This document shows, piece after piece, positions 23,257 to 64,000 of a stretch of 64,000 nucleotides of DNA. The stretch is taken from contig JAFUDQ010000012.1 in NCBI GenBank assembly GCA_017459075.1, forward strand, positions 85,910-149,909, read 5' to 3'. A program made the translations under genes and the position numbers. Origin of the DNA: Bacteroidales bacterium. GTDB lineage: Bacteria; Bacteroidota; Bacteroidia; Bacteroidales; UBA932. The notes below the pieces were generated by a model that had not been told where the DNA came from, searched no databases, and saw only the letters and a program-made list of their open reading frames with translations. The first letter of the stretch is position 1. Each line of letters begins with the position of its first letter.

Positions 23257-23262
23257 CGCATA

Positions 23263-25902
23263 ATGAGAAAAATAAGCATTACACTTTTTGCCGTTCTGGC
23301 TCTCTCATTCTGCGCCTTTGCACAGGATGAGATTTCCGTGAGGATGGTTTCCGCCGATTCCCTTGTCAGTGTTATCAGGAACCTTAGCGGGAACCGCATC
23401 CATATTGCCGGAGCAGAGAAGGACGACAGTTTCTACAGCCTTGACGCAACGCCGGAAGTATTTGTAGAAAAGGCCCTTGCAAAGTTACGCGAGGGCGGTT
23501 ACACCATTTCTGAATACAACGGAATCCTGTTTGTGGTCAAGGGCCGCAGCATGACTCCGGCCATATCCTCTTCATGGTTCCTGGCAGAAAGCCGTCAGGA
23601 AACCACTTACCATGAAGAAGAGACACAGGCGGCCGTCTACCAGAACAAAACTTACGAGATTGGCCAGGAGAGAAACTACAAGCCAGGCCGCAAGGCTACG
23701 ATTCACGGCTACGTGAAGGACGCTTCCAGCGGAGAACCTGTTGTAGGAATTTCCGTATATGACGGAAATACAAGCACTTACACAATGACCGATGCCTACG
23801 GTTTCTGGAAATTATACATCCCGTCAGGGCGCAACACCCTGAACTTCAGCGGATATCCGATGGAAGACGTCAATCTTGATATCATAGTCTATGAAGAAGG
23901 CGGATTGGATATCACCATGAAGGAGAAGGTTACAACCCTGAAGGCCGCTACCGTAAGCGCAGAGTCCGTTGCCAACCACAGGACCGCCCGTCTTGGTCTG
24001 GAAAAGATTCAGATTGAGCGCATCAAAAAGATACCTACAGCCTTCGGAGAAGGCGATATCCTTAAAGCCGTACTTGCCCTTCCTGGCGTACAGAGCGTTG
24101 GTGAAGCGTCTTCCGGATTCAACGTCCGCGGAGGCTCGGTAGACCAGAATCTGATTCTTTTCAACGAGGGAACAGTTTACAATCCGAACCACCTGTTCGG
24201 CCTTTTCTCCGCCTTCAACTCTGACGTTATTTCCCATGCAGAGCTGTACAAGAGCTCGATTCCGGCAGAATTCGGAGGACGAATTTCTTCCGTTCTTGAC
24301 ATTCACGCACGTGAAGGAAACAAGAACAAGGTCCAGGGTTCGCTTGGCATAGGACTTCTGACAAGCCGCGCAGAGATTGACGGCCCTCTGGGAGAAAAAA
24401 CATCCTTTGTACTTGGCGGCCGTACAACTTACTCCAACTGGATTATGGGCCTGCTGCCGGACGACAGCCACTACCATGACGGAAAGACCCAGTTCATGGA
24501 CCTGAATGCGGGAATCAGCCACCGTTTCAATGAGACGAACACTTTGTATCTGAACGGCTACTGGTCCCATGACAAATTCTCCTTCAGCAACGATACCACC
24601 TTCTCTTACAGCAACCTGAACCTGTCTGCCAAGCTGCGCAGCCTGCTGTCAGTAAAGACAACAATGGAGGTTGCCGCTGGTTTTGACTCCTATACCAGCA
24701 AGGTGGACGGTCATGAAGTCCTGACATTGGATTCCTATAAATACAGCAACGGAATCAACCAGGAATACCTGAAAGTTAAATTCAAACACCTTTATGACGA
24801 GTCCCACACAATGAGCTTCGGCGTAAATGCCCAGTATTACAACCTCCAGCCAGGTACAATGAAGCCCGGAGACGCCGCATCCATGGTTGCGGAAAGAATT
24901 CTGGACAAGATTTCAGCCGTAGAGGCAGCCGCTTACTTTGGAGACAGCTGGACTTTCAGCGAGAAATGGGCTTTCGAAGGCGGAGTACGCCTTGGGGCAT
25001 ACAAGAGTACTGACGGAGGGACGCTACGCGTGATGCCGGAAATCAGGCTTTCTGCAAAGTACTCCTTACTAAGCAACCTTTCTGTAAAGATGGGCATCAA
25101 CACCCTGAGGCAGAACATCCACATGATATCCAACACCTCCACGATTTCCCCGATGGATGCCTGGACCCTGGCGAACAAGAACATCAAGCCGCAGGATGGT
25201 TATCAGGCGGCCGGAGGACTGTACTGGACCAGCGACCAGGGAGTTGACATATCTGTCGAAGGTTACTGGAAGCAGAGCCGGAACAATCTTGACTATCGTT
25301 CCGGAGCGCAGCTCATCATGAATCCGGAGCTGGACAACGACCTTATCCGTACCAGAAGCCGTTCTTTCGGAGCGGAGCTGATGGTTCGCAAGGCCTCCGG
25401 AAAGCTTAACGGATGGGCTTCATACACTTACTCAAGGGCATTCATGCAGCAGATGGAGAACACTGGCACAGGCCTTATCAACGGAGGCCGATGGTATAAG
25501 GCTCCCCACGACAAGCCGCATAACTTCAAGCTTGCAGGAAACTACAAATTCACCCACAGGTACAGCCTGTCCGCCAACATAGATTACTCTACCGGAAGGC
25601 CTATCACTGTGCCGGTAGCAATCTTCTCCTCCGGCGGACGCCGCTATCTTGCATTCTCTGACAGGAACGAATACCGTATTCCGGACTACTTCCGCCTTGA
25701 TCTCGCGATGAACATTGAGCCAAGCCATTACCTGAAGAACCTGATGCATCTTTCTTTCACCGTCGGAGTATACAATGTTACCGGACGGAAGAATGCATAC
25801 TCTGTCTACTACAGCATGAAGGAGACCTACTATCCGCAAGGCTACAAGATTTCCGTATTCGCCTGCCCCATCCCTTACATTAACCTTAATATTAAATTCT
25901 AA
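23263..25902 (+). CDS. TonB-dependent outer-membrane receptor with N-terminal STN-like and carboxypeptidase-regulatory domains
   Basis: 879-residue outer-membrane transporter. Order: signal peptide 1-20; an STN/secretin-TonB-like domain about 22-95, of the sort used in FecA-type signalling; a carboxypeptidase-D regulatory-like beta-sandwich at about 145-225 (IHGYVKDASSGEPVVGISVY); the plug at about 240-350 (LPGVQSVGEASSGFNVRGGS, DQNLILFNEGTVYNPNH, EFGGRISSVLDI); then a 22-strand barrel ending in NLNIKF, with the aromatic C-terminal residue needed for outer-membrane insertion. It is shorter than SusC and paired with a DUF4249 lipoprotein instead of SusD. Its stop and the next ATG overlap by 1 nt (TAATG). 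The substrate is unknown; an STN domain would hint at an anti-sigma partner, but none is in the window. Confidence 0.9.
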   Translation: MRKISITLFAVLALSFCAFAQDEISVRMVSADSLVSVIRNLSGNRIHIAGAEKDDSFYSLDATPEVFVEKALAKLREGGYTISEYNGILFVVKGRSMTPAISSSWFLAESRQETTYHEEETQAAVYQNKTYEIGQERNYKPGRKATIHGYVKDASSGEPVVGISVYDGNTSTYTMTDAYGFWKLYIPSGRNTLNFSGYPMEDVNLDIIVYEEGGLDITMKEKVTTLKAATVSAESVANHRTARLGLEKIQIERIKKIPTAFGEGDILKAVLALPGVQSVGEASSGFNVRGGSVDQNLILFNEGTVYNPNHLFGLFSAFNSDVISHAELYKSSIPAEFGGRISSVLDIHAREGNKNKVQGSLGIGLLTSRAEIDGPLGEKTSFVLGGRTTYSNWIMGLLPDDSHYHDGKTQFMDLNAGISHRFNETNTLYLNGYWSHDKFSFSNDTTFSYSNLNLSAKLRSLLSVKTTMEVAAGFDSYTSKVDGHEVLTLDSYKYSNGINQEYLKVKFKHLYDESHTMSFGVNAQYYNLQPGTMKPGDAASMVAERILDKISAVEAAAYFGDSWTFSEKWAFEGGVRLGAYKSTDGGTLRVMPEIRLSAKYSLLSNLSVKMGINTLRQNIHMISNTSTISPMDAWTLANKNIKPQDGYQAAGGLYWTSDQGVDISVEGYWKQSRNNLDYRSGAQLIMNPELDNDLIRTRSRSFGAELMVRKASGKLNGWASYTYSRAFMQQMENTGTGLINGGRWYKAPHDKPHNFKLAGNYKFTHRYSLSANIDYSTGRPITVPVAIFSSGGRRYLAFSDRNEYRIPDYFRLDLAMNIEPSHYLKNLMHLSFTVGVYNVTGRKNAYSVYYSMKETYYPQGYKISVFACPIPYINLNIKF

Positions 25903-27215
25903 TGAAACGGCTGATATTCAAATACTTATGCACATTATGCGCACTTATGGCGATATCCTGCACTTATGAATATGATGCCGATATCCCAAGCGACACCTCC
26001 ATTATCGTTATAGACGGCCAGATTCTCGCCGGCGGAACTTCATCCGTTAGCGTTTCCAAGGCGACCAGGCTTGACGGAGCAGATGAGAGTGCTCCCCTTT
26101 ATGCCACCGGCATCCTGAGAGGAGAAGACGGGAGCGAGATTCAAGGCACCACCCAGGCCAATGGCTGGTTTGAAGGGACTTCTCCTTTTTCTTCATATTA
26201 TCCGGGAGACTTTAAAGGAGGTTATTCCACCGGCGTATCTATTTCTTTCCCTTCAGAGTACCTGCAGAAAGGCCAGAAATACAAGCTGTTCATAGATGCC
26301 GGGGAAAACGGAAGTTTTGAAAGCGATTGGCTTACAATAAACAAAGCCCCGGTCTTGGACAAACTGGGATATATAGAACATGAGGGAGTTATGTCCGGAA
26401 GCTATTACTCCGGACGTTATGTTGATTTTACGGTATCAGCCCACTCTGACAGTTCACCTTATTTCATGGTATCATTTGAAGAAGCGTGGGAATACACAGC
26501 CCTTGAAAACTCTTCACTTGAATACAATCCGGAAACAAACCAGATAGTGGAAGCCTACAGTTGGCCCCTTGAGCATCCTTATTACAGATGCTGGAGAAGC
26601 AGCGGAATGCTGACATTGGCTATTTCTGCCGCCGGACATACGGAAAAAACAATAAATGACGCGATAGTTACATCTATCAGTGCATATAACGAAAAAATTT
26701 CCGTACTTTACCGTCTTACAGTGAACGTAGGATGCGCCACTAAGGAATACCAGGAATTCTGGGACAACCTGCAGCAGATTTCTTATGCCGATGGTGACCT
26801 GTTCACCCCTATTCCAAGCAACATGGAAGGCAATATCCACCGCACTTCCGGTTCCGGCGTTGTACTGGGCTTTGTAAGTGCCAGCGAAGTTGCGTCCGAT
26901 CATATGTACTACACGGGTAACGGATTCCACAGGACATCTCCGGAAAGGAATACTCTCAGGAGGGAGTTTACATATTTTACCCCCAACTACGATCACCCTG
27001 ACGATTACTTTCAGTATTATCATCCAGATGCCAGTGAATGGCACAGAGCATACATGAACGGAAACGTTCCATGGAGGAACGCTATTGATGCAAACGGAGA
27101 AGAAATTCCCGGGTTATACCTTTGGGCTAATAAGAATTGCCTGGACTGCAGGTTCTTTGGAGGCGACATCACTTTCCCTTCTGACTGGCCGGACCGCAAT
27201 GACCCTAATCTTTAA
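25902..27215 (+). CDS. DUF4249-family lipoprotein
   Basis: 437-residue lipoprotein (signal ending MAISC at about residue 20). Like DUF4249 proteins it opens with a short beta-strand motif (IIVIDGQILAGGTSSVSVSKA) and has an N-terminal beta-sandwich, then a longer domain (TKEYQEFWDNL, SGSGVVLGFVSASEVAS) and two C-terminal Cys in NKNCLDCRFFGG. This family occurs directly downstream of TonB receptors in Bacteroidetes and probably serves as the surface lipoprotein partner. Coupling to the receptor by TAATG overlap supports a stoichiometric pair. The next gene begins 11 nt later. Confidence 0.85.
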   Translation: MKRLIFKYLCTLCALMAISCTYEYDADIPSDTSIIVIDGQILAGGTSSVSVSKATRLDGADESAPLYATGILRGEDGSEIQGTTQANGWFEGTSPFSSYYPGDFKGGYSTGVSISFPSEYLQKGQKYKLFIDAGENGSFESDWLTINKAPVLDKLGYIEHEGVMSGSYYSGRYVDFTVSAHSDSSPYFMVSFEEAWEYTALENSSLEYNPETNQIVEAYSWPLEHPYYRCWRSSGMLTLAISAAGHTEKTINDAIVTSISAYNEKISVLYRLTVNVGCATKEYQEFWDNLQQISYADGDLFTPIPSNMEGNIHRTSGSGVVLGFVSASEVASDHMYYTGNGFHRTSPERNTLRREFTYFTPNYDHPDDYFQYYHPDASEWHRAYMNGNVPWRNAIDANGEEIPGLYLWANKNCLDCRFFGGDITFPSDWPDRNDPNL

Positions 27216-28873: not shown

Positions 28874-28940
28874 GAGATTTCTCCACTCGCTTCGCTCGGT
28901 CGAAATGACATCTGTCATTCCGAACGAAGTCGAGGAATCT
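28874..28940. repeat. palindromic repeat, family B (compact copy)
   Basis: The left arm GAGATTTCTCCACTCGC...TCGAAATGACA and the right arm TGTCATTCCGAACG...GAGGAATCT are inverted copies with only TC between them, giving one hairpin of about 30 bp. It starts directly after the stop codon (28871-28873). Confidence 0.85.
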
Positions 28941-45388: not shown

Positions 45389-47515
45389 ATGACATTTAAG
45401 GAAGAAATATTGATGGGGATTCCGGAGAGGATTCCGGAGGCAAAACCGTACGATACTACCATCAACCACGCCCCCAAACGCAAGGATATTTTGACAAAGG
45501 AAGAAAAGCGCCTGGCCCTCAGGAACGCCCTCCGCTACTTCCCCGCCAGTCAGCATGCGCAGCTGGCACCGGAATTCGCCAAGGAACTTGAGGACTACGG
45601 CCGCATCTACATGTACCGCTACAGGCCGGACTACGAAATGTACGCCCGCCCCATAGACGAATACCCTGCAAAATCCCGCCAGGCCGCAGCCATAATGGCC
45701 ATGATTCAGAACAACCTGGACCCGCGAGTAGCCCAGCATCCGCACGAGCTCATTATCTACGGAGGCAACGGAGCGATATTCCAGAACTGGGCCCAGTACC
45801 GCCTTGTAATGCAGTATCTGGCCACAATGACGGATGAGCAGACCCTTGCCATGTACTCCGGCCACCCAATGGGCCTCTTCCCCTCCCACAAAGACGCCCC
45901 GCGCGTAGTTGTAACCAACGGAATGGTTATTCCAAACTACTCCAAGCCTGACCACTGGGAGAAGTTCAACGCCCTTGGCGTATCGCAGTACGGCCAGATG
46001 ACAGCCGGCAGTTACATGTATATTGGCCCGCAGGGCATTGTTCACGGGACCACTATTACAGTGCTTAATGCGGCACGGAAGGTGCTGGCAAAGAGATTTC
46101 TCCACTCCGGTCGAAATGACAGTAACTGCACTCAGGATGACAAAAAAAGTGCTCAGGATGACAAAAAAAGTGCTAAGGATGACAAAACTGTCATCTCGAC
46201 CGAGCAAAGCGAGCGGAGAGATCTCAACAGCATCGCCGGGATGCTGTTCGTAACAGCAGGCCTTGGCGGAATGTCAGGCGCCCAGCCAAAAGCCGGAAAC
46301 ATAGCCGGAGTAATCAGCGTAACCGCAGAAATCAACCCCCTGGCAGCAGAGAAACGCTACAATCAGGGCTGGGTAGACGAGCTCCACTACAACCTTGACG
46401 AGCTTCTGGTCCGCATCGGCAAAGCCCGGGAGGCAAAAGAAACCGTCTCCCTCGCATACGTCGGCAACGTAGTAGACCTCTGGGAACGCCTTGCAGACGA
46501 AGGCATCCAGGTAGACCTCGGCAGCGACCAGACCTCTCTACACAACCCTTGGGCCGGCGGATACTACCCCGCAGGCTACTCCCTTGAAGAGTCCAAGAAG
46601 ATGATGGCAGAAGAGCCGGAGCGCTTCAAAGAAGCCGTCCAGGCCTCACTCCGCAGGCATGCAGCAGCCATCGGCCGCCTTGCAGACAGGGGCATGTATT
46701 TCTTTGACTACGGCAACGCCTTCCTGCTGGAGAGCTCCCGCGCCGGCGCAGACATCGTAAAACCGGACGGCACCTTCCGCTACCCTTCATACGTCCAGGA
46801 CATCATGGGCCCCATGTACTTTGACTATGGCTTCGGCCCCTTCCGCTGGGTCTGCATGAGCGAAGATCCGGAAGACCTTGCCAAGTCCGACGCCCTTGCC
46901 GTCAAGGTCCTTAGGGAGATATCTGCCACCGCTCCTGCGGAGATTCAGGGCCAGATGCACGACAACATCCGCTGGATAGAAGAGGCCGGACGAAACAACC
47001 TTGTGGTAGGCTCCCAGGCCAGAATCCTGTATGCCGACTGCGAGGGCCGTACCAAGATTGCCCTTGCCTTCAATGAGGCCATCGCCAGCGGAGAGATTTC
47101 CGGGCCGATAGTGCTTGGTCGCGACCATCACGACGTTTCCGGTACCGACTCCCCCTTCCGAGAGACTTCCAATATTTACGACGGCTCCCAGTTCACTGCC
47201 GACATGGCTGTTCAGAACGTCATTGGCGATGCTTTCCGCGGTGCCACATGGGTATCGATACACAACGGAGGCGGCGTTGGCTGGGGAGAGGTTATCAACG
47301 GCGGCTTTGGTATGGTGATTGATGGTAGCGAAGACAGCGCCCGCCGCATTCGCAATATGCTGTTCTGGGATGTGAACAATGGCATCGCCCGCCGCAGCTG
47401 GGCTCGGAACGATGGTTCCCGTTTTGCCATCCAGCGTGAAATGGACCGCACCCCCGGCCTTCGCGTCACTCTTCCAAACATCGCAGATGACAATTTAATT
47501 AACTCAATCATATAA
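45389..47515 (+). CDS. hutU: urocanate hydratase with an in-frame palindromic-repeat insertion
   Basis: Converts urocanate to imidazolonepropionate with tightly bound NAD+. 708 residues, about 40 more than I expect for the family. Recognisable blocks: LIIYGGNGAIFQNWAQYRL, LAMYSGHPMGLFPSHKDAPR, QMTAGSYMYIGPQGIVHGTT, LFVTAGLGGMSGAQPKAGN (NAD site), SDQTSLHNPWAGGYYPAGY, MYFDYGFGPFRWVCMS. Residues 235-279 do not belong: nt 46093-46225 are a complete family-B palindrome, translated as a low-complexity stretch with three QDDKKSA/KDDKTV-like units, placed just before the NAD-binding segment. The frame is kept, so a protein is still made; whether it is active is an open question. hutH follows after a 227-bp repeat-filled gap. 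Confidence 0.94.
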   Translation: MTFKEEILMGIPERIPEAKPYDTTINHAPKRKDILTKEEKRLALRNALRYFPASQHAQLAPEFAKELEDYGRIYMYRYRPDYEMYARPIDEYPAKSRQAAAIMAMIQNNLDPRVAQHPHELIIYGGNGAIFQNWAQYRLVMQYLATMTDEQTLAMYSGHPMGLFPSHKDAPRVVVTNGMVIPNYSKPDHWEKFNALGVSQYGQMTAGSYMYIGPQGIVHGTTITVLNAARKVLAKRFLHSGRNDSNCTQDDKKSAQDDKKSAKDDKTVISTEQSERRDLNSIAGMLFVTAGLGGMSGAQPKAGNIAGVISVTAEINPLAAEKRYNQGWVDELHYNLDELLVRIGKAREAKETVSLAYVGNVVDLWERLADEGIQVDLGSDQTSLHNPWAGGYYPAGYSLEESKKMMAEEPERFKEAVQASLRRHAAAIGRLADRGMYFFDYGNAFLLESSRAGADIVKPDGTFRYPSYVQDIMGPMYFDYGFGPFRWVCMSEDPEDLAKSDALAVKVLREISATAPAEIQGQMHDNIRWIEEAGRNNLVVGSQARILYADCEGRTKIALAFNEAIASGEISGPIVLGRDHHDVSGTDSPFRETSNIYDGSQFTADMAVQNVIGDAFRGATWVSIHNGGGVGWGEVINGGFGMVIDGSEDSARRIRNMLFWDVNNGIARRSWARNDGSRFAIQREMDRTPGLRVTLPNIADDNLINSII
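46093..46225. repeat. palindromic repeat, family B, inserted in frame inside hutU
   Basis: 133 bp. The left end GAGATTTCTCCACTCCGG ... ATGACA and the right end TGTCATCTCGACCGAGC ... GAGAGATCTC are inverted copies. Between them are three near-identical units built on CTCAGGATGACAAAAAAAG. No stop codon occurs in the hutU frame. Confidence 0.88.
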
Positions 47516-47517
47516 TG

Positions 47518-47731
47518 AGATTTCTCCACTCGCTTCGCTCGGTCGAAATGACAGGAAAGAATCACTCGAAATGACAGGATAATATCGCTCGAAATGACAG
47601 GAAAGAATCGCTCGAAATGACAGGATAATATCGCTCGAAATGATAGGATAATATCGCTCGAAATGATAAATGAGAGGACAATCATTCTGTCATTTCGACC
47701 GAGCCCGGAGGGCGAGCGGAGAAATCTCAAA
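47518..47731. repeat. family-B repeat expanded by a 23-bp tandem array
   Basis: The left arm starts 2 nt after the hutU stop and the right arm (about 47689-47728) ends 14 nt before the hutH ATG, the two being inverted copies. Between them about five tandem 23-bp units alternate AGGAAAGAATC and AGGATAATATC, each followed by RCTCGAAATGAY. The gap between hutU and hutH is therefore entirely repeat. Confidence 0.88.
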
Positions 47732-49233: not shown

Positions 49234-50565
49234 ATGGGGAAAAGAATTCTTATCCGGAATATCGGGGAGCTGGCCGGCATAGTTCCGGCCGGCGTCCTTC
49301 GCAAGTGCGGGGATGAGATGTCCTCTGTAGAGTCTATCAGGAATGCCTGGCTGCTTATTGAGGACGGGCGGATTGCCGGCTTCGGCCAGATGCCCGATCA
49401 GGTCGGGCATGACGGTAAAGGCGTCATTCCCGGCTGCGACCGGGAATCTGCCACCGAGGTTATTGATGCCGATGGTGGCATGGTCCTGCCGGCGTTCTGC
49501 GACAGCCATACCCATATTGTGTACGCCGGTTCCCGCGAGGGCGAATTTCTGGATAAGATTAACGGCCTGAGTTATGAAGAGATAGCTGCCCGTGGCGGAG
49601 GCATTCTGAATTCCGCAGACCTCCTGCACAATACTTCAGAGGAGGAGCTTTACCGTCAGTCCAAGGCCCGTCTGGATGAGATGATTGCCTTTGGCAGCGG
49701 GGCCATTGAGATTAAGTCCGGCTATGGCTTGTCTACAGAAGACGAGCTAAAGATGCTGCGGGTTATCCGCCGTCTTAAGGAGAATTCTCCGGCACTTATC
49801 AAGGCTACTTTCCTTGGCGCCCACGCCGTGGCCCGCGGCATGACCCGTTCAGACTACGTAGACAAAATCTGCAATGAAATGCTCCCGGCAATAGATTCCC
49901 ACGCTTCGCTCGGAATGACAAAAAAAATCAAAGGCTCTGTCATTTCGACCGAGCCCAAGGGGCGAGTGGAGAAATCTTCATTGGCAGATTTTGTGGATGT
50001 ATTCTGTGATGAGGGTTTTTTTACTCCGGAGGATACTGCACGTATTCTGGAAGCTGCTTCCAAATATGGAATAAGGCCAAAGATTCATGCTAATGAACTG
50101 GCAGTCAGCGGCGGAGTACAAGTAGGCGTCAAATACAACGCCCTCTCAGTAGACCACCTGGAACGCACCACAGACGCAGAAATAGAAGCCCTGAAAGGCA
50201 CCGAAACCATGCCCACAATGCTCCCCGGCAGCTCCTTCTTCCTTGGTCTCCCCTATGGCCGCGCCAAAGAATACATCGCCGCCGGCCTGCCCCTTGCCCT
50301 GGCATCGGACTACAATCCAGGTTCTTCGCCCAGCGGGGACATGCGCTTTGTAATGGCCCTCGGCTGCATCAGGATGCGCCTCACCCCGGCTCAGGCCTTC
50401 AATGCCTGCACCCTTAACAGCGCCTACGCCATGGGCGTAAGCCAAGAGGCCGGCTCCATCACCGTAGGCAAACGCGCCAACCTAATCCTCACCCACCCCG
50501 GCTGGAACCTCACCAAAATCCCCTACCACTACCGCACTCCCTTTATCAAAAAGATCATACTATAA
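49234..50565 (+). CDS. hutI: imidazolonepropionase with an in-frame palindromic-repeat insertion
   Basis: Hydrolyses imidazolonepropionate to formiminoglutamate; amidohydrolase fold with one metal. 443 residues. The metal site is CDSHTHIVYAGSREGEF near residue 90; further blocks are SYEEIAARGGGILNS, FGSGAIEIKSGYGLSTEDEL, FLGAHAVARGM, VFCDEGFFTPEDTARIL, PKIHANELAVSGGVQVG, SVDHLERTTDAEI and LASDYNPGSSPSGDM. Residues 221-248 (nt 49893-49977) are a family-B palindrome read through in frame, between CNEMLPAI and ADFVDVFCDEGFF, which are adjacent or nearly so in the family as I recall it. Last gene of the hut run; terminator at 50563. Confidence 0.94.
   Translation: MGKRILIRNIGELAGIVPAGVLRKCGDEMSSVESIRNAWLLIEDGRIAGFGQMPDQVGHDGKGVIPGCDRESATEVIDADGGMVLPAFCDSHTHIVYAGSREGEFLDKINGLSYEEIAARGGGILNSADLLHNTSEEELYRQSKARLDEMIAFGSGAIEIKSGYGLSTEDELKMLRVIRRLKENSPALIKATFLGAHAVARGMTRSDYVDKICNEMLPAIDSHASLGMTKKIKGSVISTEPKGRVEKSSLADFVDVFCDEGFFTPEDTARILEAASKYGIRPKIHANELAVSGGVQVGVKYNALSVDHLERTTDAEIEALKGTETMPTMLPGSSFFLGLPYGRAKEYIAAGLPLALASDYNPGSSPSGDMRFVMALGCIRMRLTPAQAFNACTLNSAYAMGVSQEAGSITVGKRANLILTHPGWNLTKIPYHYRTPFIKKIIL
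49893..49977. repeat. palindromic repeat, family B, inserted in frame inside hutI
   Basis: 85 bp. Left arm AGATTCCCACGCTTCGCTC ... GGAATGACA (49893-49920); right arm TGTCATTTCGACCGAGCC ... GTGGAGAAATCT (49938-49977). An A-rich 17-nt middle separates them. The hutI frame stays open across it. Confidence 0.86.
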
Positions 50566-55794: not shown

Positions 55795-55879
55795 GGAGAG
55801 TTGGCCGAGTGGTCGATGGCGGCAGTCTTGAAAACTGTTGAGCTGAAAGGCTCCGGGGGTTCGAATCCCTCACTCTCCG
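55795..55879 (+). tRNA. tRNA-Ser (UGA anticodon)
   Basis: Acceptor stem GGAGAGT (55795-55801) pairs with ACTCTCC (55872-55878), with discriminator G at 55879. The anticodon loop CTTGAAA (55827-55833) gives anticodon TGA at 55829-55831. A long class II variable arm (GAGC ... GGCTC) and the T-loop GGTTCGAATCC are present. CCA is not encoded, so CCA is added after RNase Z trimming. A terminator follows at 55891. Confidence 0.96.
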
Positions 55880-55890
55880 CTAAAGATAGC

Positions 55891-55928: not shown

Positions 55929-56048
55929 GATAGCTTTAGCAATGCCCGCCGCAGGCGGGAGGGATTGTTTCCCATATACAGGGGCGCTTCGCTCCCCCGA
56001 ACCCCCTGGCCTCCAGTGCTTCATTGCATTCCACACCTTCGGCCTGCG

Positions 56049-56096
56049 CCTGTCACAATCGGCAATAATGTCTGGATAGGCGGCAGTGTGACCATC
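56049..56096 (+). pseudogene. remnant of a hexapeptide-repeat acetyltransferase
   Basis: 16 codons read PVTIGNNVWIGGSVTI, the signature of maltose/galactoside O-acetyltransferases (LbH fold). Nothing on either side continues the fold, so this is a scrap of a lost gene. The remaining gap sequence (55930-56173) has one small GC-rich hairpin (CCCGCC/GGCGGG near 55944-55958) and no gene I can support. Confidence 0.6.
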
Positions 56097-56173
56097 TGGG
56101 TGTTTGCCTTTTTTCGGAGACAAAGTTCCAAAACGGGCACCAGAAAAATGGCACATATGGATGCCCATATGTA

Positions 56174-56359
56174 CTACGAAATTATCCTTTGGACTGTCCG
56201 AGTTTGGTGGTGAGCGCCTCCAGATAGGAGGTGGTTGAGAAGGGCCTTTGCCTGAGAGATGAACTCGTTAAGCTGGAAATCCAGCTCGGAAGGGGTGATG
56301 TCCTCGTCGGACATTGTCTGTACCGTTGTAAGAAAACGGCAATTGAGAATTTCATTCAT
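56174..56359 (-). CDS. small protein of unknown function (uncertain gene)
   Basis: 61 residues, no signal peptide, no transmembrane helix. The acidic, amphipathic middle (TMSDEDITPSELDFQLNEFI) suggests a small helical soluble protein. Support: an ATG start and a TATTTTTG -7 element on the same strand at 56406-56413, about 47 nt upstream. Against: it is short, and it sits in a decayed region next to a gene remnant. No family recognised. Confidence 0.4.
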   Translation of the reverse strand: MNEILNCRFLTTVQTMSDEDITPSELDFQLNEFISQAKALLNHLLSGGAHHQTRTVQRIIS

Positions 56360-56405
56360 ACGCTATAGTGTTTGAAAGTTGTGTTGCCTATTTCTTTTCT
56401 CGGAA

Positions 56406-56413
56406 CAAAAATA
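56406..56413 (-). promoter_or_regulatory. candidate -7 element (TAnnTTTG) for the 61-residue ORF
   Basis: The minus strand reads TATTTTTG. The surrounding 56360-56589 gap is AT-rich and otherwise empty except for the plus-strand element at 56548. Confidence 0.35.
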
Positions 56414-56547
56414 AATGTGGGTTGTACCACAATATGAGACAGTTACGAATTATTTTTGTGTTTTTTACCAATTAGAAAGCAATGAGTCAAGTTTTTGTGT
56501 TTGAGCAATTTCACATCATTTTTCAAGGAATGCTGCGAAAAAATGTA

Positions 56548-56555
56548 TATTTTTG
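56548..56555 (+). promoter_or_regulatory. candidate -7 element (TAnnTTTG) of the helicase-methylase operon
   Basis: TATTTTTG, predicting a start near 56562 and a leader of about 28 nt to the ATG at 56590. Confidence 0.5.
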
Positions 56556-56589
56556 TAGTGCAGTAAGATTAATAGCAATACAACCATAA

Positions 56590-59500
56590 ATGAGTGCAAA
56601 ATTCTTTAACAATAACGGAGAGAATACGCTCTTCGCTAAGTTAAAAGGCATTGCTCAGGGGATGGCCAACTTCGACCGTTTCTTGGCAGTTGTCGGTTTT
56701 TTCCGTTCCTCCGGGTATTTTAAGCTCAGAAAGGAATTAGGAGATGTCTCTGAAATAAAGATTCTCGTCGGTATAAATGTCGACGAAATCTTCCGCAGAC
56801 ACAACCAAGCGCTTTTGATGCTTACCGATGAAACGAAGGCTAAGAAAGTTTATAGCGATCAGTTTAAAGAGGATATCCTTAATGCAAAATATAGCAAAGA
56901 CGTTGAGGATGGAATTCTCCAGATGTGTGAAGACTTGACATCTGGACGCCTTCAGATGCGCATTCATGGCTCTAAGAACCTCCATGCCAAGTTCTATCTT
57001 TGCCTCCCGCAGAATCACAACGAGAATTCGGATGGTTGGGTAATCATGGGATCCTCCAACATCTCAGATTCCGGATTAGGCATTTCGGAGCCACCTCGCT
57101 ATGAACTCAACGTCGCCATGAAGGATTTTGATGACGTTGATTATTGTAAGAAAGAATTTGAAACACTCTGGGAAGAAGCCATTCCGCTTACCCTTGATGA
57201 TATCGAACTCAACAAAAAGAAAACATACCTTGGCTATCAACCAACCCCTTACGAGATTTATATCAAGGTTTTGATCGACACCTTTGGCGATCAAGTTGAA
57301 GACGATTTTACCATCCAGCTCCCCGATGGTGTCCTTGACCTAAAATATCAAAAGGACGCTGTAATTCAGGGCTACCAGATGCTCCTTAAGCACAATGGAC
57401 TCTTTCTGGCCGACGTTGTAGGTCTTGGTAAGACAATGATTGCAACAATGATTGCAAAGCGTTTTATCGAGGCAAATGGGAAAAACACGAACATTCTTGT
57501 CATCTACCCGCCTGCGCTTGAGGATAACTGGAAACAGACTTTCAAGCTGTTTGGCATTGAAAGGAAAGCGCAGTTCATTACCAACGGGAGCCTCCATAAA
57601 GTTTTGAGTGGCGAGAATCAATATAAGGAAAAGGAAGAGTTTGATCTTATCATTGTGGATGAAGCGCACGGTTTCCGCAGCGATCAATCCGGCAAATATG
57701 ATGAGCTCCAGAAGATTTGTAAATCCGCATGCACGAATCTTGGACTACTACGCAGTCTCCAGAAAAAGGTAATGCTCCTTTCCGCAACTCCTCTGAACAA
57801 CCGCCCACAGGATTTGTTGAATCAATTACTTCTGTTCCAAAACAGCCAGAGCTGTACAATAGACGGAATTCCTAATTTGAAGGCGTTTTTCTCTCCTTAC
57901 ATTGCAGAGTACTCAAAATTGATGCGTGAGAGGGATCAGAGGGATATTACTGCCGAGGTTGACAAGATTTACGAGGCCATTAGGGAAAAAGTCATTGATA
58001 AAGTGACTGTACGCAGAACTCGCCATAATATTCTCAATGACCCAGATTACCGGAAAGATCTTGAAAAACAGCATATTGTTTTTCCGAATATTCTTGCACC
58101 GAATATTCTTGAATATGTCATGGACGATGATACCAGCGAGCGATTCTATAACACTCTATCATACCTGACGGATCCGGAAAACCCTATGCATCTTGAATAT
58201 GCAAGGTATCGTGCCATTGAATTCCTCAAGCCAGAACTACAAAGTAAATATCAGAATGCCGTCCACCTTGGACAGTCTCTTGCCGGGATTTACAAAGTTC
58301 ATATGGTGAAGAGACTTGAAAGTAGTTTCCACGCGTTCAAGAAATCACTGCGTACCCTTCTCCGTATTACTGACGATATGATCCACATGTTCGAAGATGG
58401 ACGTGTGCTGATTGCCCCTGATCTTAAAATTAAAGACCTTCAAGCCAAGGGGATGGAACTGGATCAAATCATTGAGTACGCTGTGAGCAAGGGATATCTT
58501 GCTGACGAGATTACTTTCTCTCCGGATGATTTTGATCCGCAATTGTTGAAGCTTCTGAAGGATGATAAGGAAGTTCTTGAATACCTGATCGATGACTGGG
58601 ACAAAGAGAATGACGACCAGAAATTCGACAAATTCAAAGAGGTGCTCGCAAATGAGCTCATGCGTCCGGATATCAATAAAGAAGGGAAGCTCGTTGTTTT
58701 CTCTGAAAGCGTTGATACGCTCGAATATCTGTATGAGCGCATGAAGAATGAAACGGGGCGAACGGACATTACCCTGGTCACTTCCCAGAATAGAAACAAG
58801 GTGGTGAAACTGGTTAAGGAGAATTTTGATGCCAACTCCAAAGTCAAGCTCAATTCGGTAAACATCATCCTCACCTCTGATGTTCTTGCTGAAGGTGTTA
58901 ACCTGCACAGATCCAATGTCATTGTCAACTACGATTCTCCTTGGAATGCGACACGGCTTATGCAGCGCATCGGGCGTGTTAATCGAATCGGCTCTGTCGC
59001 AGAGAACATCTATAATTACATGTTCTATCCATCGAAGCAAGGCAATAGCCAAATCCAGCTTTATGAAAACGCTCTCATGAAGTTACAGGGATTCCATTCT
59101 GCTTACGGCGAAGACGCACAGATTTATTCCCGCGAGGAGATTGTGAAGCAGTTTGAGATGTTTGATAGCAACGTGCGCGACGCGGTTGATAAGAAGATTC
59201 AGCTTCTCCGAGAGGTTCGAGAACTATATTCCAAGGACAGAAAGCTTTATAACAAGATAAAGAATCTCCCGATGAAGAGTCGCGTTATGCGAGACACCGG
59301 AAAACATTCTGGATCTTCCATTGTTTTCGTTTCGTCAAACGTAAAGACGGAATTCTACAAGGTCGATTCGAAGATTGTTGAGCCGCTGGATTTCTTGGAG
59401 GCAGTTAAATACCTCAAGGCAAAGCCTGAAGAGCAGCCCGCTCCCTTTGGCGATGATAACACTCACTTCGAGCATGTTAATCGAGCCCTTGACAGCTACT

Positions 59501-59868
59501 CCTATGCTGTCATGGAAGCACGAGATGACAATACCGCCCGCCGGGTTGATTTGGATCAGACATCACTCAGAGCCAACAATTTCCTTAGGACGGTTAAGAG
59601 AATAACTCAGGATTCCGATCTTCAGGCGAAGTGTGATATCCTAATGAATTATATCAATGACGGTGTTTATTCTCAGCTCCCTCGATATTTGAAAGCTCTG
59701 GCCGGGGAATTTCATAACGACAGAGTCCTTATGAAAGAAAAGGAATACTACATTTCCACCAAGATTGATGGCCTAATCCAAACATATCATTCACAGACAA
59801 GAAAGGAAAGGAATAGCCGACAAGAGGTCGAGGATCCTCGTATCATCATATCAGAAACATTCAAATAG
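56590..59868 (+). CDS. SNF2-type DNA helicase with N-terminal phospholipase-D-like nuclease domain (defence system)
   Basis: 1092 residues. N-terminal PLD-like domain (about 1-200) with one half-site: LHAKFYL, giving His132-x-Lys134, then GSSN at 154-157. A single half-site acts as a dimer in other PLD nucleases. The superfamily 2 helicase follows: GLGKT at 278-282, DEAH at 357-360, LLSATPLNNRPQDL near 395, the second RecA lobe with VVFSESVDTLEYL, LTSDVLAEGVNLH, and motif VI QRIGRVNRIGS from residue 792. ATP-driven translocation plus cleavage is inferred. The adenine methylase begins 8 nt after the stop, so the two proteins surely work together. The gene is visibly less GC-rich than the metabolic genes, suggesting acquisition. 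It resembles parts of DISARM and type ISP systems, but no drmA/drmB or BREX gene is in view. The name of the system is left open. Confidence 0.87.
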   Translation: MSAKFFNNNGENTLFAKLKGIAQGMANFDRFLAVVGFFRSSGYFKLRKELGDVSEIKILVGINVDEIFRRHNQALLMLTDETKAKKVYSDQFKEDILNAKYSKDVEDGILQMCEDLTSGRLQMRIHGSKNLHAKFYLCLPQNHNENSDGWVIMGSSNISDSGLGISEPPRYELNVAMKDFDDVDYCKKEFETLWEEAIPLTLDDIELNKKKTYLGYQPTPYEIYIKVLIDTFGDQVEDDFTIQLPDGVLDLKYQKDAVIQGYQMLLKHNGLFLADVVGLGKTMIATMIAKRFIEANGKNTNILVIYPPALEDNWKQTFKLFGIERKAQFITNGSLHKVLSGENQYKEKEEFDLIIVDEAHGFRSDQSGKYDELQKICKSACTNLGLLRSLQKKVMLLSATPLNNRPQDLLNQLLLFQNSQSCTIDGIPNLKAFFSPYIAEYSKLMRERDQRDITAEVDKIYEAIREKVIDKVTVRRTRHNILNDPDYRKDLEKQHIVFPNILAPNILEYVMDDDTSERFYNTLSYLTDPENPMHLEYARYRAIEFLKPELQSKYQNAVHLGQSLAGIYKVHMVKRLESSFHAFKKSLRTLLRITDDMIHMFEDGRVLIAPDLKIKDLQAKGMELDQIIEYAVSKGYLADEITFSPDDFDPQLLKLLKDDKEVLEYLIDDWDKENDDQKFDKFKEVLANELMRPDINKEGKLVVFSESVDTLEYLYERMKNETGRTDITLVTSQNRNKVVKLVKENFDANSKVKLNSVNIILTSDVLAEGVNLHRSNVIVNYDSPWNATRLMQRIGRVNRIGSVAENIYNYMFYPSKQGNSQIQLYENALMKLQGFHSAYGEDAQIYSREEIVKQFEMFDSNVRDAVDKKIQLLREVRELYSKDRKLYNKIKNLPMKSRVMRDTGKHSGSSIVFVSSNVKTEFYKVDSKIVEPLDFLEAVKYLKAKPEEQPAPFGDDNTHFEHVNRALDSYSYAVMEARDDNTARRVDLDQTSLRANNFLRTVKRITQDSDLQAKCDILMNYINDGVYSQLPRYLKALAGEFHNDRVLMKEKEYYISTKIDGLIQTYHSQTRKERNSRQEVEDPRIIISETFK

Positions 59869-59876
59869 CACTAACT

Positions 59877-62800
59877 ATGGCTAAAACATATACCAACGAA
59901 GACCTGAGGGCCGTATTTCAGTCGTCATTCCGGCTTGACACATGGCAGTCCATGCTTAAGGGTCTCTTCCACTCAAAGGAGATAAGAGTGCAGCCAGAGT
60001 TCATTGGTGGCAAGGACAATGAATGCGGCTATTATCTTGGGGCCCTTGATACGGAGGATAATTACCGTGTGGGGCTTTTCTGGTATGAGATAACTAAGGG
60101 ATCCGTTGTACACAAGAAGGTGGGATTACGGCAGCTGGTAAAGTCTTTTATTAACCCCAGCTGGGGCGAATTTGATGCTGCGCTTGCTGTATTCTCTGAG
60201 GGGAGCCATTGGCGTCTTTCCCTTATCTGCGATATCAAGGAAGAGGCCATGTCACCTCGGAGATATACTTATGTCTTTGGGGAGAAGAATAACTATTACA
60301 ACACCCCCGTAGCGAGGTTTGACTTTATTCAGAAAAATGGAGTCACCTTCGAGAGTCTCAAAAACGCCTTCTCGGTAGAGGCCCTGACAAAACAGTTCTA
60401 CAACGAGCTCTTTGATTGGTACCAATGGGCCGTCAAGGACGAAACGGGTGTGACGTTCCCTAACAATACGGCCACCGAAGATGATGACCGCGAGCAGATT
60501 GACACGAAAATTATCCGTCTTATCACCAGATTGATGTTTGTCTGGTTCATCAAGCAGAAAGACCTTGTTCCTTCAGTACTGTTCGATCCAAACCAGATGA
60601 AGGGGGTTATTAAAGACTTTAACCCTCTTAGCAAGACAAGCGGAACATACTATAATGCGATTCTGCAGAATTTGTTCTTCGCAACTCTTAACAGAGCAAT
60701 AGTTGATGAGGAGGGAAACAGACGGTGTTTCGACAAATCCCAGAGAAAGGGTGTAAAGACAACTTATCGCTATTCAGAGCTCTTTTCAATTAGCGAGGAT
60801 GCTGTCATCAAGATGTTTGCAGATGTTCCTTTCCTAAATGGCGGCTTGTTTGAGTGTCTGGATAAAACAAAGACTCTCGATGGCGTAGAAAAAGCATTCA
60901 ATTTTGATGGCTTCAGTCGCAATGATGCCCGGTTTGCCGATGGCCGCTATAAGTATCGTGCTTTCATTCCGAATGTCTTATTCTTTGATCCGGAATACGG
61001 CCTATTCTCCATTTTGAACAGGTATAATTTTACTATTGAAGAGAATACTCCAAACGAGCAGCAGGTCGCCCTGGATCCAGAGTTGCTTGGAAAGGTCTTT
61101 GAGAACCTCCTTGGCGCATACAACCCGGAAACCAAGGAAACTGCCAGAAACCAGAGCGGCTCTTTTTATACGCCACGAGAGGTCGTTAATTACATGGTGG
61201 ATGAAAGCATCATCGCCTACCTTGGGGATTCCGACTTCTCCCGTTCTTTGTTAAGCGACGAATTTACTCCTAATCCCAAAGACAAGGAACAGTATGCAGA
61301 AGTCGCAAAGAAGCTTAAAGAGATAAAGATTCTCGATCCGGCTTGCGGATCCGGAGCATTCCCTATGGGGCTCCTCAACCGTATAGTGGACATTTTGGAG
61401 AAGATCTCCCCGGAAGAGAGCATATATCAATTGAAACTCGCCCTCATCGAGAACTGCATTTACGGTATTGATATCCAAAGCATCGCTGTTCAGATAAGTA
61501 AGCTTCGGTTCTTCATATCACTTATCTGTGATTGCGAAAAGGATCCATCCAAACCGAATTTTGGCATCCCCACCCTTCCTAACCTTGAGACGAAGTTCGT
61601 TTGCGCCAACTCGCTGATCTCTGCCGATATTATCAAGTATGAAGGAGACTGGACAAACAATGCGGATCTTAACGCAATGCAGCAGGAGTTGATAGATATC
61701 CGTCAAAAGCATTTCGGAGCCCGCACTACTGCAGAGAAGAGAAGATATCGTGCCGCTGATGAACGGAAAAGAGAGGATATCCTGCAGCATATTCTTATCG
61801 ACGTGTCGACTCCCGACGAGGAACAAATATCAAGATGGGAATCCGAGATAGAAAGACTGCGTAAAGAGGCCGTTGCATACAAAGAGGAGGTCTGGGTGGA
61901 TGTTACGAAAGAACCAGAGGTCACTTTGTTTGGCGTTGTTGAATCCCCGACCTCAATATTCCGAGAGGATATCAATAAGAAGAAACGCGATGAGATAAAT
62001 GGCAAGATTCGCTTCTTCCAGCAGCAGATCTCTAAGGAAAGAAATAAAGGGAAGCTTCAGGGCTTCGAGGCTGCAGTTAAACAGATTACGGATTGGAATC
62101 CATATGATCAGAATGCGTCATCGGAATTCTTCTCATCCGAATGGATGTTTAATGTTAAGGATGGCTTCGACATTGTTATAGGTAATCCGCCTTACATCCA
62201 GCTCCAGAATAATGGAGGCGAGTTAGGAAAGCTCTATGCTCCTTGCGGATATGAGTCGTTTGCCAGCACTGGAGATATCTACTGCCTGTTTTATGAGCGC
62301 GGTTGGCAATTGCTCAAGAAAGGTGGTCACCTTTGCTACATAACTTCCAACAAATGGATGCGGGCAGGGTATGGCGAGAAACTCAGAACGTTCCTCGCTT
62401 CTCAGACGGATCCGCAGCTCATGATTGATTTTGGCGGTGTCAAGGTATTTGAAAGCGCAACGGTTGATACGAACATTCTGCTCTTTGCCAAAGATGCCAA
62501 TAAGCATAACACCCGCTGTGCTGTAACCAATAAACAGAACAAGGATAGCCTAAAGCAATTGAGCGTTTTCGTACAGCAGCAGGGTACTTTCTGTGACTTC
62601 CCCGGAGGTGACAGCTGGGTGATCCTAGCCCCGATTGAGCAGAGCATCAAGCGCAAGATAGAAGCCGTTGGGACTCCCCTCAAGGATTGGGATATTAATA
62701 TCTATCGTGGCGTCCTTACTGGGTACAACGAAGCATTCATTATTTCTTCTGACAAGAGGAAGGAAATCCTCGACAACTGTAAGACAGAGGATGAGAGAAA

Positions 62801-63446
62801 AAGAACGGAGGAACTTATACGACCGATTCTTCGTGGCCGGGATATTAAACGCTATGGATATGAGTGGGCAAACTTGTGGTTAATTAACACCCACAACGGT
62901 GTAAAAGGTCGAATTCCAAGGATCCGAATCGAGGATTATCCAGCAGTGAAAGCGCATCTTGACCGGTATTGGGATAAAATCAAAGATAGAGCCGATCAAG
63001 GAGACACTCCATACAATCTCAGGAACTGCGCTTATTTGGAGGATTTTAGTCGGCCAAAAGCGATGTGGAAAATAATTGGTTGCAATATCAATTTCTCGTT
63101 TGATTACGAACGTTTTTTATGCAACAACGCTGTCAATATTATCACAGGTAAAGAATCAGTCATTCTCCAATTTGTTGGAATCATGAATAGCAAATTGTTT
63201 GATTGGTATCTGAAACTAACAACTGAAGCAGAAGTCCAAGGGGGCGGGATCCAATTATACGTCACGACGCTTGAGAAAACACAAGTCAAATTAGATTTCC
63301 CGGAACCTTTATCGACGGTAGTTCGTGGCAGAGTCCAGGGAAATCATTCTGATGCTGATGTTGACAAGGCCGTCTTTGATGCTTATGGCCTTTCAAATGA
63401 AGAAAGAGAATACATAATCCAGCACAAGAAGGTAAATCGCAAATAA
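59877..63446 (+). CDS. adenine-N6 DNA methylase of Eco57I/type IIG-ISP type, with switchable C-terminal recognition domain
   Basis: 1189 residues. An N-terminal helical/beta region of about 1-380 has no PD-(D/E)XK nuclease that I can identify. Methylase domain: LDPACGSGAFPMGLLNRI with the SAM-binding Asp at 487, and the catalytic NPPY at 770-773 (IVIGNPPYIQLQNN). The target-recognition region follows from about 880 (LIRPILRGRDIKRYGYEW). The final 135 residues (from EDFSRPK at 1055) are the part that also exists as separate headless copies downstream. The gene ends immediately before the stop codon of the inverted copy (63446/63447, no gap). It probably both protects self DNA and sets the site recognised by the helicase-nuclease partner. 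The type is inferred from motifs alone. Confidence 0.9.
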   Translation: MAKTYTNEDLRAVFQSSFRLDTWQSMLKGLFHSKEIRVQPEFIGGKDNECGYYLGALDTEDNYRVGLFWYEITKGSVVHKKVGLRQLVKSFINPSWGEFDAALAVFSEGSHWRLSLICDIKEEAMSPRRYTYVFGEKNNYYNTPVARFDFIQKNGVTFESLKNAFSVEALTKQFYNELFDWYQWAVKDETGVTFPNNTATEDDDREQIDTKIIRLITRLMFVWFIKQKDLVPSVLFDPNQMKGVIKDFNPLSKTSGTYYNAILQNLFFATLNRAIVDEEGNRRCFDKSQRKGVKTTYRYSELFSISEDAVIKMFADVPFLNGGLFECLDKTKTLDGVEKAFNFDGFSRNDARFADGRYKYRAFIPNVLFFDPEYGLFSILNRYNFTIEENTPNEQQVALDPELLGKVFENLLGAYNPETKETARNQSGSFYTPREVVNYMVDESIIAYLGDSDFSRSLLSDEFTPNPKDKEQYAEVAKKLKEIKILDPACGSGAFPMGLLNRIVDILEKISPEESIYQLKLALIENCIYGIDIQSIAVQISKLRFFISLICDCEKDPSKPNFGIPTLPNLETKFVCANSLISADIIKYEGDWTNNADLNAMQQELIDIRQKHFGARTTAEKRRYRAADERKREDILQHILIDVSTPDEEQISRWESEIERLRKEAVAYKEEVWVDVTKEPEVTLFGVVESPTSIFREDINKKKRDEINGKIRFFQQQISKERNKGKLQGFEAAVKQITDWNPYDQNASSEFFSSEWMFNVKDGFDIVIGNPPYIQLQNNGGELGKLYAPCGYESFASTGDIYCLFYERGWQLLKKGGHLCYITSNKWMRAGYGEKLRTFLASQTDPQLMIDFGGVKVFESATVDTNILLFAKDANKHNTRCAVTNKQNKDSLKQLSVFVQQQGTFCDFPGGDSWVILAPIEQSIKRKIEAVGTPLKDWDINIYRGVLTGYNEAFIISSDKRKEILDNCKTEDERKRTEELIRPILRGRDIKRYGYEWANLWLINTHNGVKGRIPRIRIEDYPAVKAHLDRYWDKIKDRADQGDTPYNLRNCAYLEDFSRPKAMWKIIGCNINFSFDYERFLCNNAVNIITGKESVILQFVGIMNSKLFDWYLKLTTEAEVQGGGIQLYVTTLEKTQVKLDFPEPLSTVVRGRVQGNHSDADVDKAVFDAYGLSNEEREYIIQHKKVNRK
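63038..63058 (+). repeat. inverted-repeat copy 1 (within methylase), proposed recombination site
   Basis: GGAGGATTTTA, then GTCGGCCAAA; 19 of 21 bases match the inverted copy at 63826-63846. It codes for EDFSRPK, the first residues of the exchangeable C-terminal block. Confidence 0.65.
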
Positions 63447-63851
63447 TTATGTTATCTCAATATAACCTATTGCTTGAATATCTTTTTCGTCAAGGTTATA
63501 AGCTCTGAAGATCATCTCATCAATCTGTTTAGCTTTTTCTTGAGAAAAACATCTTTGAATATCTTTTACAACTTGAATAAACGGTGTCTCATCTTCAATA
63601 CGAAGCACTGGAATATTATCAAAAAAGATCTTGCTTAATTCTCGTGTCCCCCCTTGCAGTTCCGGGAATGAATCGCGAAAGCAAAATTTAAATAAGGATG
63701 AGTTCAGGAAGGCCGTTAAGTAAGCGGTGCGCTCTCCTGTAATTATAAAGCATTTCTGGTTTGTAAAATAGTTGCAATCATCGAAACAGAAAGGCATATA
63801 CTTCGTCATATTTGGGTATATAATCTTTGGCTGATTAAAATCCTCCGTCAA
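63447..63851 (-). pseudogene. inverted, headless copy of the methylase C-terminal recognition domain (silent cassette 1)
   Basis: 132 codons from EDFNQPK (63845) to a stop at 63447 align by eye with the last 135 residues of the methylase: EDF..PK, then a FDD/FDY..F..N block, ITGERTAYLTAFLNSSLFKF against ITGKESVILQFVGIMNSKLF, and IFRAYNLDEKD against VFDAYGLSNEE. There is no ATG, only a TTG, and none of the methylase's SAM or NPPY region, so on its own it is not a gene. It lies tail-to-tail with the methylase with no gap. Its head carries GGAGGATTTTA (63836-63846, minus strand), identical to 63038-63048 in the methylase. This is the structure expected of a donor cassette for inversion. Confidence 0.82.
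63826..63846 (-). repeat. inverted-repeat copy 2 (head of silent cassette 1)
   Basis: On the minus strand GGAGGATTTTA, then ATCAGCCAAA, matching 63038-63058 except for two transitions. Inversion between the two would swap 63048-63836 and fuse cassette 1 in frame to the methylase. Confidence 0.65.
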
Positions 63852-63860
63852 AGTATAACG

Positions 63861-64000
63861 GAGGAATTTTCTAAGCCAAAAATCGTCTATATGGAAATCC
63901 AGACAGATAATGCTTCTGAAGGCTATCCCTTTCCCTGTTTTTCATTCGATAACAGAAAATGCATTACTCTTAATACCGCGTATACCATGAGTAGCGAATC
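63861..64000 (+). pseudogene. second headless recognition-domain cassette, plus strand (runs off window)
   Basis: In frame from 63861 the plus strand reads EEFSKPKIVYMEIQTDN, then YPFPCFSFDNRKCITLNTAY, again matching the start of the methylase C-terminal block (EDFSRPK ... NFSFDYERFLCNNAVNI). It has no upstream methylase and no convincing start. It lies head-to-head with cassette 1, separated by 13 nt inside a palindrome (CCTCCGT 63842-63848 / ACGGAGG 63858-63864). The rest is beyond the window. Confidence 0.7.

Follow-up and report, generated by a model that had tools for sequence, protein, structure and literature searches.

A probable shufflon-like specificity switch in a helicase-linked adenine methylase of Bacteroidales

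Among inversion switches of DNA methylation, the Type I HsdS systems are the best known. In Streptococcus pneumoniae SpnIII and in Type I systems of Bacteroides fragilis, silent HsdS recognition domains are reportedly swapped by inversion at inverted repeats. In the R64 shufflon, the tyrosine recombinase Rci acts on a pilus gene, and Mpi of B. fragilis flips promoters of surface genes. Type II restriction-modification (R-M) genes were reportedly predicted as inversion targets by Milman, Yelin and Kishony in 2023, with partial validation by long reads, and this set probably includes the methylase family treated here. To our knowledge, multi-site modular exchange, a shared site motif or an Mpi-family invertase were not part of that work. 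The locus analysed here lies at the end of a stretch of 64,000 nucleotides (nt) from a Bacteroidales genome, referred to as the window (G000:C2:85910-149909), the end of which coincides with the end of contig C2. It comprises a helicase gene, an adenine methylase gene and start-less copies of the end of the methylase gene. Sequence comparisons make it very probable that the locus is a shufflon-like specificity switch of the helicase-linked adenine methylase with three crossover sites, S1, S2 and S3, of which S2 is the least secure.

A homologous locus has been mapped in Prevotella intermedia 17F, and the helicase–methylase pair is therefore not an undescribed combination; inversion was not proposed for it in the available text (PMC5608340). 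Like the locus in the window, the Pin17FIII locus holds an upstream SNF2 helicase, a methylase assigned to type IIG and a partner open reading frame (ORF) on the complement strand, Pin17FORF9595, with ORF coordinates of 22231-25584 and 25608-26525 c (PMC5608340). The partner was read by the authors as a second R-M gene, and the inversion passages in the accessible part of the paper concern Type I loci alone; the words recombinase, invertase and resolvase are absent from the text. The methylome of strain 17F comprised the three motifs GGNYAG, CCNYAG and GGYGAB. Cloned Pin17FIII made GGYGAB only and the partner ORF made nothing, and three related unassigned motifs were given for Rikenella microfusus DSM 15922, which has a homologous locus. 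This motif puzzle was ascribed by the authors to interaction with the helicase (all PMC5608340, available text). The R. microfusus locus is present in our data set as L048 and has an inverted cassette and a recombinase. Inversion in culture would be a simpler account of the 17F motifs, with the half-motifs GG/CC and NYAG/YGAB as separate module choices. Inversion switches of Type I systems are described in the available text of PMC5903667. No multi-site exchange in this methylase type was found in the open literature searched, which included the accessible parts of PMC5903667, PMC12707154, PMC13076061, PMC11868660, PMC11892184 and PMC10939037. Inversion of R-M specificity genes is already established, and its multi-site modular form in such a methylase appears to be new.

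The recognition region of the methylase was divided into module A (approximately residues 900-980), module B (985-1053) and module C (1060 to the end). The following features were assigned to the locus:

56590..59868, plus strand: PLD (HKD-type) and SNF2-family helicase, probable restriction/translocation partner (Pfam, PADLOC, relatives)
59877..63446, plus strand: expressed adenine methylase with Eco57I domain and TaqI_C-like C-terminus, type IIG-like (Pfam, PADLOC)
62561..62696, plus strand: putative crossover site S1, core GAGCGTTTTCGTACAGCA (shared with the head of a cassette on contig C33, family-wide excess identity)
62820..62848, plus strand: putative crossover site S2, CGACCGATTCTTCGTGGCCGGGATATTAA (match to the C33 cassette)
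63038..63058, plus strand: putative crossover site S3, copy in the expressed gene
63059..63446, plus strand: expressed module C, the last recognition module with the stop
63447..63851, minus strand: inverted silent module C that lacks a start and has its own stop (ORF list, Pfam, alignment)
63826..63846, minus strand: putative crossover site S3, inverted silent copy
63860..63881, plus strand: putative crossover site S3, direct silent copy, GGAGGAATTTTCTAAGCCAAAA
63860..64000, plus strand: second silent module C, start only, in direct orientation and cut by the contig end

The helicase gene matched PLDc_2 in Pfam with 29.1 bits (cut-off 27), in addition to ResIII, SNF2-rel_dom and Helicase_C, and it also matched the PADLOC HKD+Snf2 model. 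The methylase of 1189 amino acids matched Eco57I with 139.9 bits, TaqI_C with 36.3 bits and the PADLOC REase_MTase_IIG model, in agreement with the initial annotation of an Eco57I-like methylase linked to a PLD-helicase. As in type IIG enzymes, a methylase domain and a TaqI/Eco57I-type recognition domain are joined in one chain. No nuclease family was among the Pfam matches of the methylase, and inspection by eye revealed no clear D..ExK motif in its N-terminal block. A nuclease domain was thus not established for the methylase; the likelier cutter is the helicase with its PLD domain.

The methylase stop (63444-63446) directly abuts the stop of the inverted ORF (63447-63449), so that the gene and its start-less copy meet tail-to-tail without a gap, as initially described. 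The inverted ORF comprises 134 amino acids counted from a TTG. The check on its homology to the methylase C-terminus was run, and the proposal held: TaqI_C was matched with 41.6 bits and an E-value of 1.7e-10 (cut-off 26.5), and alignment to the methylase C-terminus gave 28% identity with an E-value of 2.7e-6. A start-less homologous cassette thus lies in inverted orientation beside the expressed gene, as in an inversion locus. The second headless copy on the plus strand was likewise recovered. It starts 14 nt past the repeat, at 63860, with a frame that is open to the window end as EEFSKPKIVYMEIQTDN... The inverted repeat at the heads of both halves, 63038-63058 and 63826-63846, has, as noted before, 19 of 21 matches, and it was the top inverted pair among those listed for 60000-64000. 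Exchange at this repeat would indeed be in frame. The repeat is, in addition, the last of three apparent sites, with S1 and S2 further upstream in the gene, so that exchange could involve more than one C-terminal block.

A DNA search of the genome with the methylase 3' end gave, apart from C2, a sole match in the last 600 nt of contig C33. The protein search added one weaker place on C18, which matched the catalytic part of the methylase. Contig C33 carries a full-length serine recombinase ORF (L003 13764-14369) of the Mpi family (NCBIfam NF009949), with 343.8 bits against a curated cut-off of 272. A headless cassette begins four nt past the recombinase stop, in frame with the methylase. At S1, 135 of 136 nt are identical to the window gene from 62561, without a shared base leftward, which gives a sharp edge. 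At S2, identity is 29 of 29 nt (62820-62848), and C33 terminates three nt into the site equivalent to S3. The recombinase of this genome sits on this separate contig end and not on C2. The likely order, with a predicted join of C2 and C33, is helicase and methylase (forward), module C (inverted), module C (forward), a gap, modules A and B (inverted) and the invertase (inverted). Should C33 belong to this genome, at least 2 x 2 x 3 combinations would be present in it. The initial annotation had foreseen further cassettes and a recombinase to the right. Both were found on the end of C33, subject to the presumed join, and an inverted silent cassette together with a serine recombinase within 5 kb was present in 25 of 41 relatives with at least 2.5 kb of sequence beyond the methylase stop.

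The locus in the window resembles inverting HsdS systems in that silent recognition domains appear to be exchanged at inverted repeats. The HsdS of Type I systems is a separate subunit, whereas the recognition region here is the methylase C-terminus. Like the R64 shufflon, the locus has a constant gene part followed by several cassettes that point in both directions, but with a serine invertase and a methylase instead of a tyrosine recombinase and a pilus gene. The C33 recombinase falls above the cut-off of the family of the B. fragilis master DNA invertase Mpi; Mpi acts at promoters, whereas the invertases here adjoin coding cassettes.

Relatives were the best 80 of 209 methylase loci from one scan of a species-genome collection, a choice that favours contigs reaching far into the gene. 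L105 and L029 are one and the same sequence. The contig ended within the methylase ORF in 29 relatives, and 41 of the other 51 extended at least 2.5 kb beyond the stop. For 73 of the 80, a helicase homologue was present on the same strand as the methylase, at most 2.5 kb upstream. Cultured carriers include Bacteroides xylanisolvens XB1A (L053) and Hoylesella loescheii DSM 19665 (L069). Among the 41 extended loci, an inverted start-less cassette was present in 26 and a serine recombinase within 5 kb in 28. Three had a recombinase without a cassette (L046, L068 and L075) and one, L063, a cassette without a recombinase. Ten recombinases were tested from 30 loci with a recombinase near the methylase, and all ten were Mpi family with 315.6-346.5 bits. 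They originated from Prevotella, Segatella, Porphyromonas, Rikenella and Sphingobacterium as well as from metagenome-assembled genomes (MAGs) labelled Bacillota, Alphaproteobacteria, Helicobacteraceae and Campylobacteraceae. Multiple silent pieces occurred in some loci (L035, L058, L081 and L082), including pieces of module C only like those of the window. Matches to the 3' region of the window were found in 11 of 200 genomes drawn from its own genus, and matches to the methylase body at E < 1e-30 in 21 of 199 genomes of its own family, distant homologues among them; both counts include the genome itself. The plasmid search returned 327 records, each below 60% identity, with the Lactococcus matches H1-H4 among the similar ones. 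Three loci were on viral contigs, of which L106 and L107 were used in the comparisons. A divergent subgroup of L046, L068, L075 and L084 showed other inverted repeat pairs in the recognition region, such as CGTCCATTTCTTGAAGAC and TTTAAGGAGGGATTTTGTTGGA in L075. Its loci L046 and L068 have an Mpi-family invertase, and enzyme and site may have changed together in this subgroup.

For localisation of the exchange points, 63 expressed and 36 silent recognition regions were aligned, and codon identity between expressed and silent copies within a locus was compared with that between loci, the latter sampled at every third of 2234 pairs. Three apparent crossover points emerged, S1 at residue 895, S2 at 982 and S3 at 1055 (all approximate). 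Within-locus identity was in excess by +0.20 to +0.35 at S1 (894-917), +0.24 to +0.27 at S2 (972-983) and +0.20 at S3 (1056-1061). It was at or below the between-locus level at 942-947, 1002-1019 and 1026-1049, and also, to within +0.01, from 1062 onwards. When silent copies were re-paired among loci in 1000 permutations, the observed within-locus identity was attained in none at S1, in one at S2 and in none at S3. Over the variable stretches, permuted identity equalled or exceeded the observed value in 980 (942-950), 1000 (1010-1048) and 1000 (1066-1160) of the 1000. Sites that are alike and variable stretches that are unlike within a locus are as expected from exchange at fixed points with diversifying cargo. 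The repeats at these points are inverted and alike within a locus, as in inversion loci.

The sites were of the types GAGCGATTTTGTGCAGCA for S1, GACCGATTTTGCGTGGCA for S2 and GGAGGATTTTTCTAAGCCAAAA for S3. Their likeness was assessed with an S1 profile, built leaving out the tested locus, which ranked about 2,600-3,900 positions per gene. It was applied to those 40 of the 63 expressed genes whose S1 is of the GAGC or GAGT type, and S2 was scorable in 36 of these and S3 in 30. First rank of S1 in 40 of 40 genes is partly a result of choice, since the genes were selected by their S1 type. S2 ranked among the top five in 31 of 36 genes (chance about 1.4% per gene), and in all 30 genes scored for it S3 was among the top twenty (chance about 5.3% per gene). 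S1 and S2 are in different reading frames, so that protein conservation does not explain their likeness, an argument that fails for S3. In L079 (12109-12252), compared with L106 (95.8% alike over 8131 nt), a contig end links S1 directly with S2 in the inverted cassette via a shared CGATTTTG. This junction had the first appearance of an S1 flip, but the frame is broken and it was not counted as evidence. An assembly error or a rare product may account for it; a real junction would represent an off-register product revealing the crossover core.

Reassortment was examined by comparing modules between loci, with sharing defined as at least 80% nucleotide identity and unrelated as below 65%, and with pairs scored 0 if lengths differed by more than 35%. 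For modules A, B and C, 85, 79 and 76 of the 99 sequences were used. Where 26 inter-locus pairs had B in common, C was unrelated in 24 and shared in none. The converse held for the six pairs with a common C, in which B was unrelated in four and shared in none. With A in common, C was unrelated in 14 of 15 pairs and shared in none, and B was unrelated in 13 of 19 and shared in five. Matching blocks were also seen in individual pairs. The expressed S1–S3 stretch of L058 matched the silent inverted copy of L055 with 87%, the stretch between two S3 copies in L107 matched L030 with 90%, and the stretch of L083 from about S2 to S3 matched an inverted silent piece of L082 with 92%. L060 and L063, with 94.2% identity across 9750 nt, diverge just after S2. 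The expressed S1–S3 stretch of L063 is an 89% match to the silent inverted copy of L060, and the expressed module B of L060 a 91% match to a silent piece of L063. The edges of these pairwise blocks fall at or near the sites.

Several assemblies also broke at S1 or S3. For 25 of the 29 contigs that end inside the methylase, the end falls by extrapolation at residues 895-1100. Selection accounts in part for this pile-up in the last quarter of the gene, because late ends are favoured when the best 80 loci are taken; it has less influence on ends located at the sites themselves. In seven contigs the distance from the start of a site to the contig end is 10-27 nt; the site is S1 in L034, L036, L052, L059, L069 and L073 and S3 in L051, and the end of L090 is similar by eye. 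By our own arithmetic, about 0.4 of 29 ends would be expected at the sites if they were spread evenly along the gene. The S1 pattern was searched for in 11 genomes, namely nine in which the contig end truncates the methylase, the genome of L067, where the contig stops 97 nt beyond the methylase ORF, and G000. It matched in seven, and the reversed pattern matched in none; the four misses may have a differing S1, as L036 does. The S1 copy on the other contig adjoins a recombinase in G001, G002, G005, G009 and G010, besides G000, and in G004 only the copy on the methylase side was found. In G002, two contigs have exactly their last 23 nt in common, which is the S1 core. Two contigs of G009 share 141 nt, and the two ends in G010 do not coincide. 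In G005, the methylase contig overlaps the next contig by exactly 55 nt, ending where the expressed and silent cassettes diverge. Given an assembler word size of 55 and a 25-nt repeat, this branch would need reads of both arrangements. The overlap in G002 could alternatively result from a small word size, and that in G009 from a repeat as long as the word.

These observations are consistent with a mechanism in which an Mpi-family invertase would recombine like sites (S1, S2 or S3) in inverted orientation. A silent A-B-C, B-C or C piece, including its own stop, would be brought in frame behind the constant methylase body, and the displaced expressed piece would turn silent. Repeated inversions would mix the modules. 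The recognition region would set the methylated site and, by association, determine which site the PLD-helicase spares or attacks, so that each inversion would shift modification and restriction specificity together. Populations would thereby stay mixed in their methylomes, which would be of use against phages and might alter gene expression. Invertase action on the sites, switching at this locus, dependence of specificity on the modules and restriction by the helicase according to the site of the methylase are what we infer from sequence. A broader model is, on balance, slightly favoured: one Mpi-family invertase, three related sites and three shuffling modules would generate a dozen or more specificities from few spares, each resetting methylation and the attack of the PLD-helicase, with the 17F motifs as module combinations.

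Several results weigh against a three-site switch. The 21-nt repeat alone was near chance, with 19 of 21 matches or better in 8 of 200 dinucleotide-preserving shuffles of 62500-64000, and it was rejected as stand-alone proof; its meaning comes from its position, which is at identical codons in the two copies, and from the relatives. Within-locus excess identity was still positive at 948-971 and 984-1001 (+0.07 to +0.18). The likeness of S3 to S1 was weak, with S3 in the top five in 13 of 30 genes, and GATTTT is common to S1 and S3 in the same reading frame, so that this likeness is possibly in part protein-driven. Among 22 pairs with a common B for which A was scored, A was below 65% in none and shared in five, and A was below 65% in none of the six pairs with a common C. 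Stretch A therefore does not appear clearly independent of B, and S2 is less firm as a separate exchange point than S1 and S3 because A is the more conserved stretch. The mixed arrangement in G005 was read from assembler behaviour, not directly from reads. Furthermore, the loci share ancestry, so that the locus counts lack independence.

The rival explanations differ in which of these results they accommodate. That the spare copies are relics of duplication or past horizontal exchange, with switching having ceased, agrees with the 12 of 41 sufficiently long relatives that have neither cassette nor recombinase, which also counts against a switch. This explanation is nevertheless quite unlikely, as the silent frames are open in the window and on C33, the recombinase is full length and over its family cut-off, the sites are alike within loci while modules differ, and contigs end at the sites. 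Exchange of modules by general homologous recombination or gene conversion, with another role for the adjacent recombinase, would draw on S1 repeats long enough for RecA (135 of 136 nt here and 310 nt at 100% in L048), and spnIII switching in the pneumococcus reportedly does not depend on any of its known site-specific recombinases (PMC6620402). It is considered unlikely given S3 repeats of 21-37 nt among the pairs listed, short for RecA, a motif shared by the sites, the different reading frames of S1 and S2, and an Mpi-type invertase adjoining S1 in the cases examined. Finally, C33 might be a contaminant or another locus, and this genome would then have S3 exchange alone, without a local invertase. 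The join is not in the assembly, which is listed as 8.16% contaminated, and this likewise tells against the full locus proposed here. A foreign C33 is very unlikely in view of the 135 of 136 nt in common at S1 with a sharp edge, and of the five genomes named above besides G000 in which methylase and recombinase are also on separate contigs meeting at or near S1.

Other features of the surroundings were noted. McrB-like (AAA_5 with EVE domain) and McrC-like genes lie beyond the invertase (L003 10102-13612, G000:C33). They were rejected as a part of the system and treated as neighbours, since phmmer found no homologue in the flanks of L011-L090, many of which are cut by contig ends. DISARM and BREX were rejected as assignments of the locus, with a DrmD helicase score of 142.1 bits far under the curated cut-off of 610 and a PglX score of 91.1 bits far under that of 500. 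An RNA element was rejected because no Rfam match reached the gathering score in 56000-64000. A tRNA-Ser (tga) gene at 55795-55880 ends about 700 nt before the helicase gene; defence islands commonly integrate at genes of this kind. Elsewhere in the window, a short interspersed repeat (GTCATTTCGACCGAA and variants) had 17 matches at up to three mismatches, with 1.7 expected. Copies were located at 21011-21117, 28895-28928, 46106-46204, 47538-47703 and 49905-49953. Those at 46106-46204 and 49905-49953 lie inside ORFs, apparently as in-frame insertions, and these ORFs presumably encode urocanate hydratase and imidazolonepropionase.

In a three-site switch of this kind, the inversion trick would sit in the C-terminus of a single-chain, helicase-tied methylase. 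Its exchange points would lie inside the recognition region, and its invertase would be a small one from a known family. The system appears to be spread across Bacteroidales and MAGs labelled as other phyla. It offers a testable account of the published puzzle in which three motifs were found and one clone made one motif, and if the modular model is true, a fourth motif, CCYGAB, would be predicted for P. intermedia 17F. The locus family would represent a natural set of interchangeable recognition modules.

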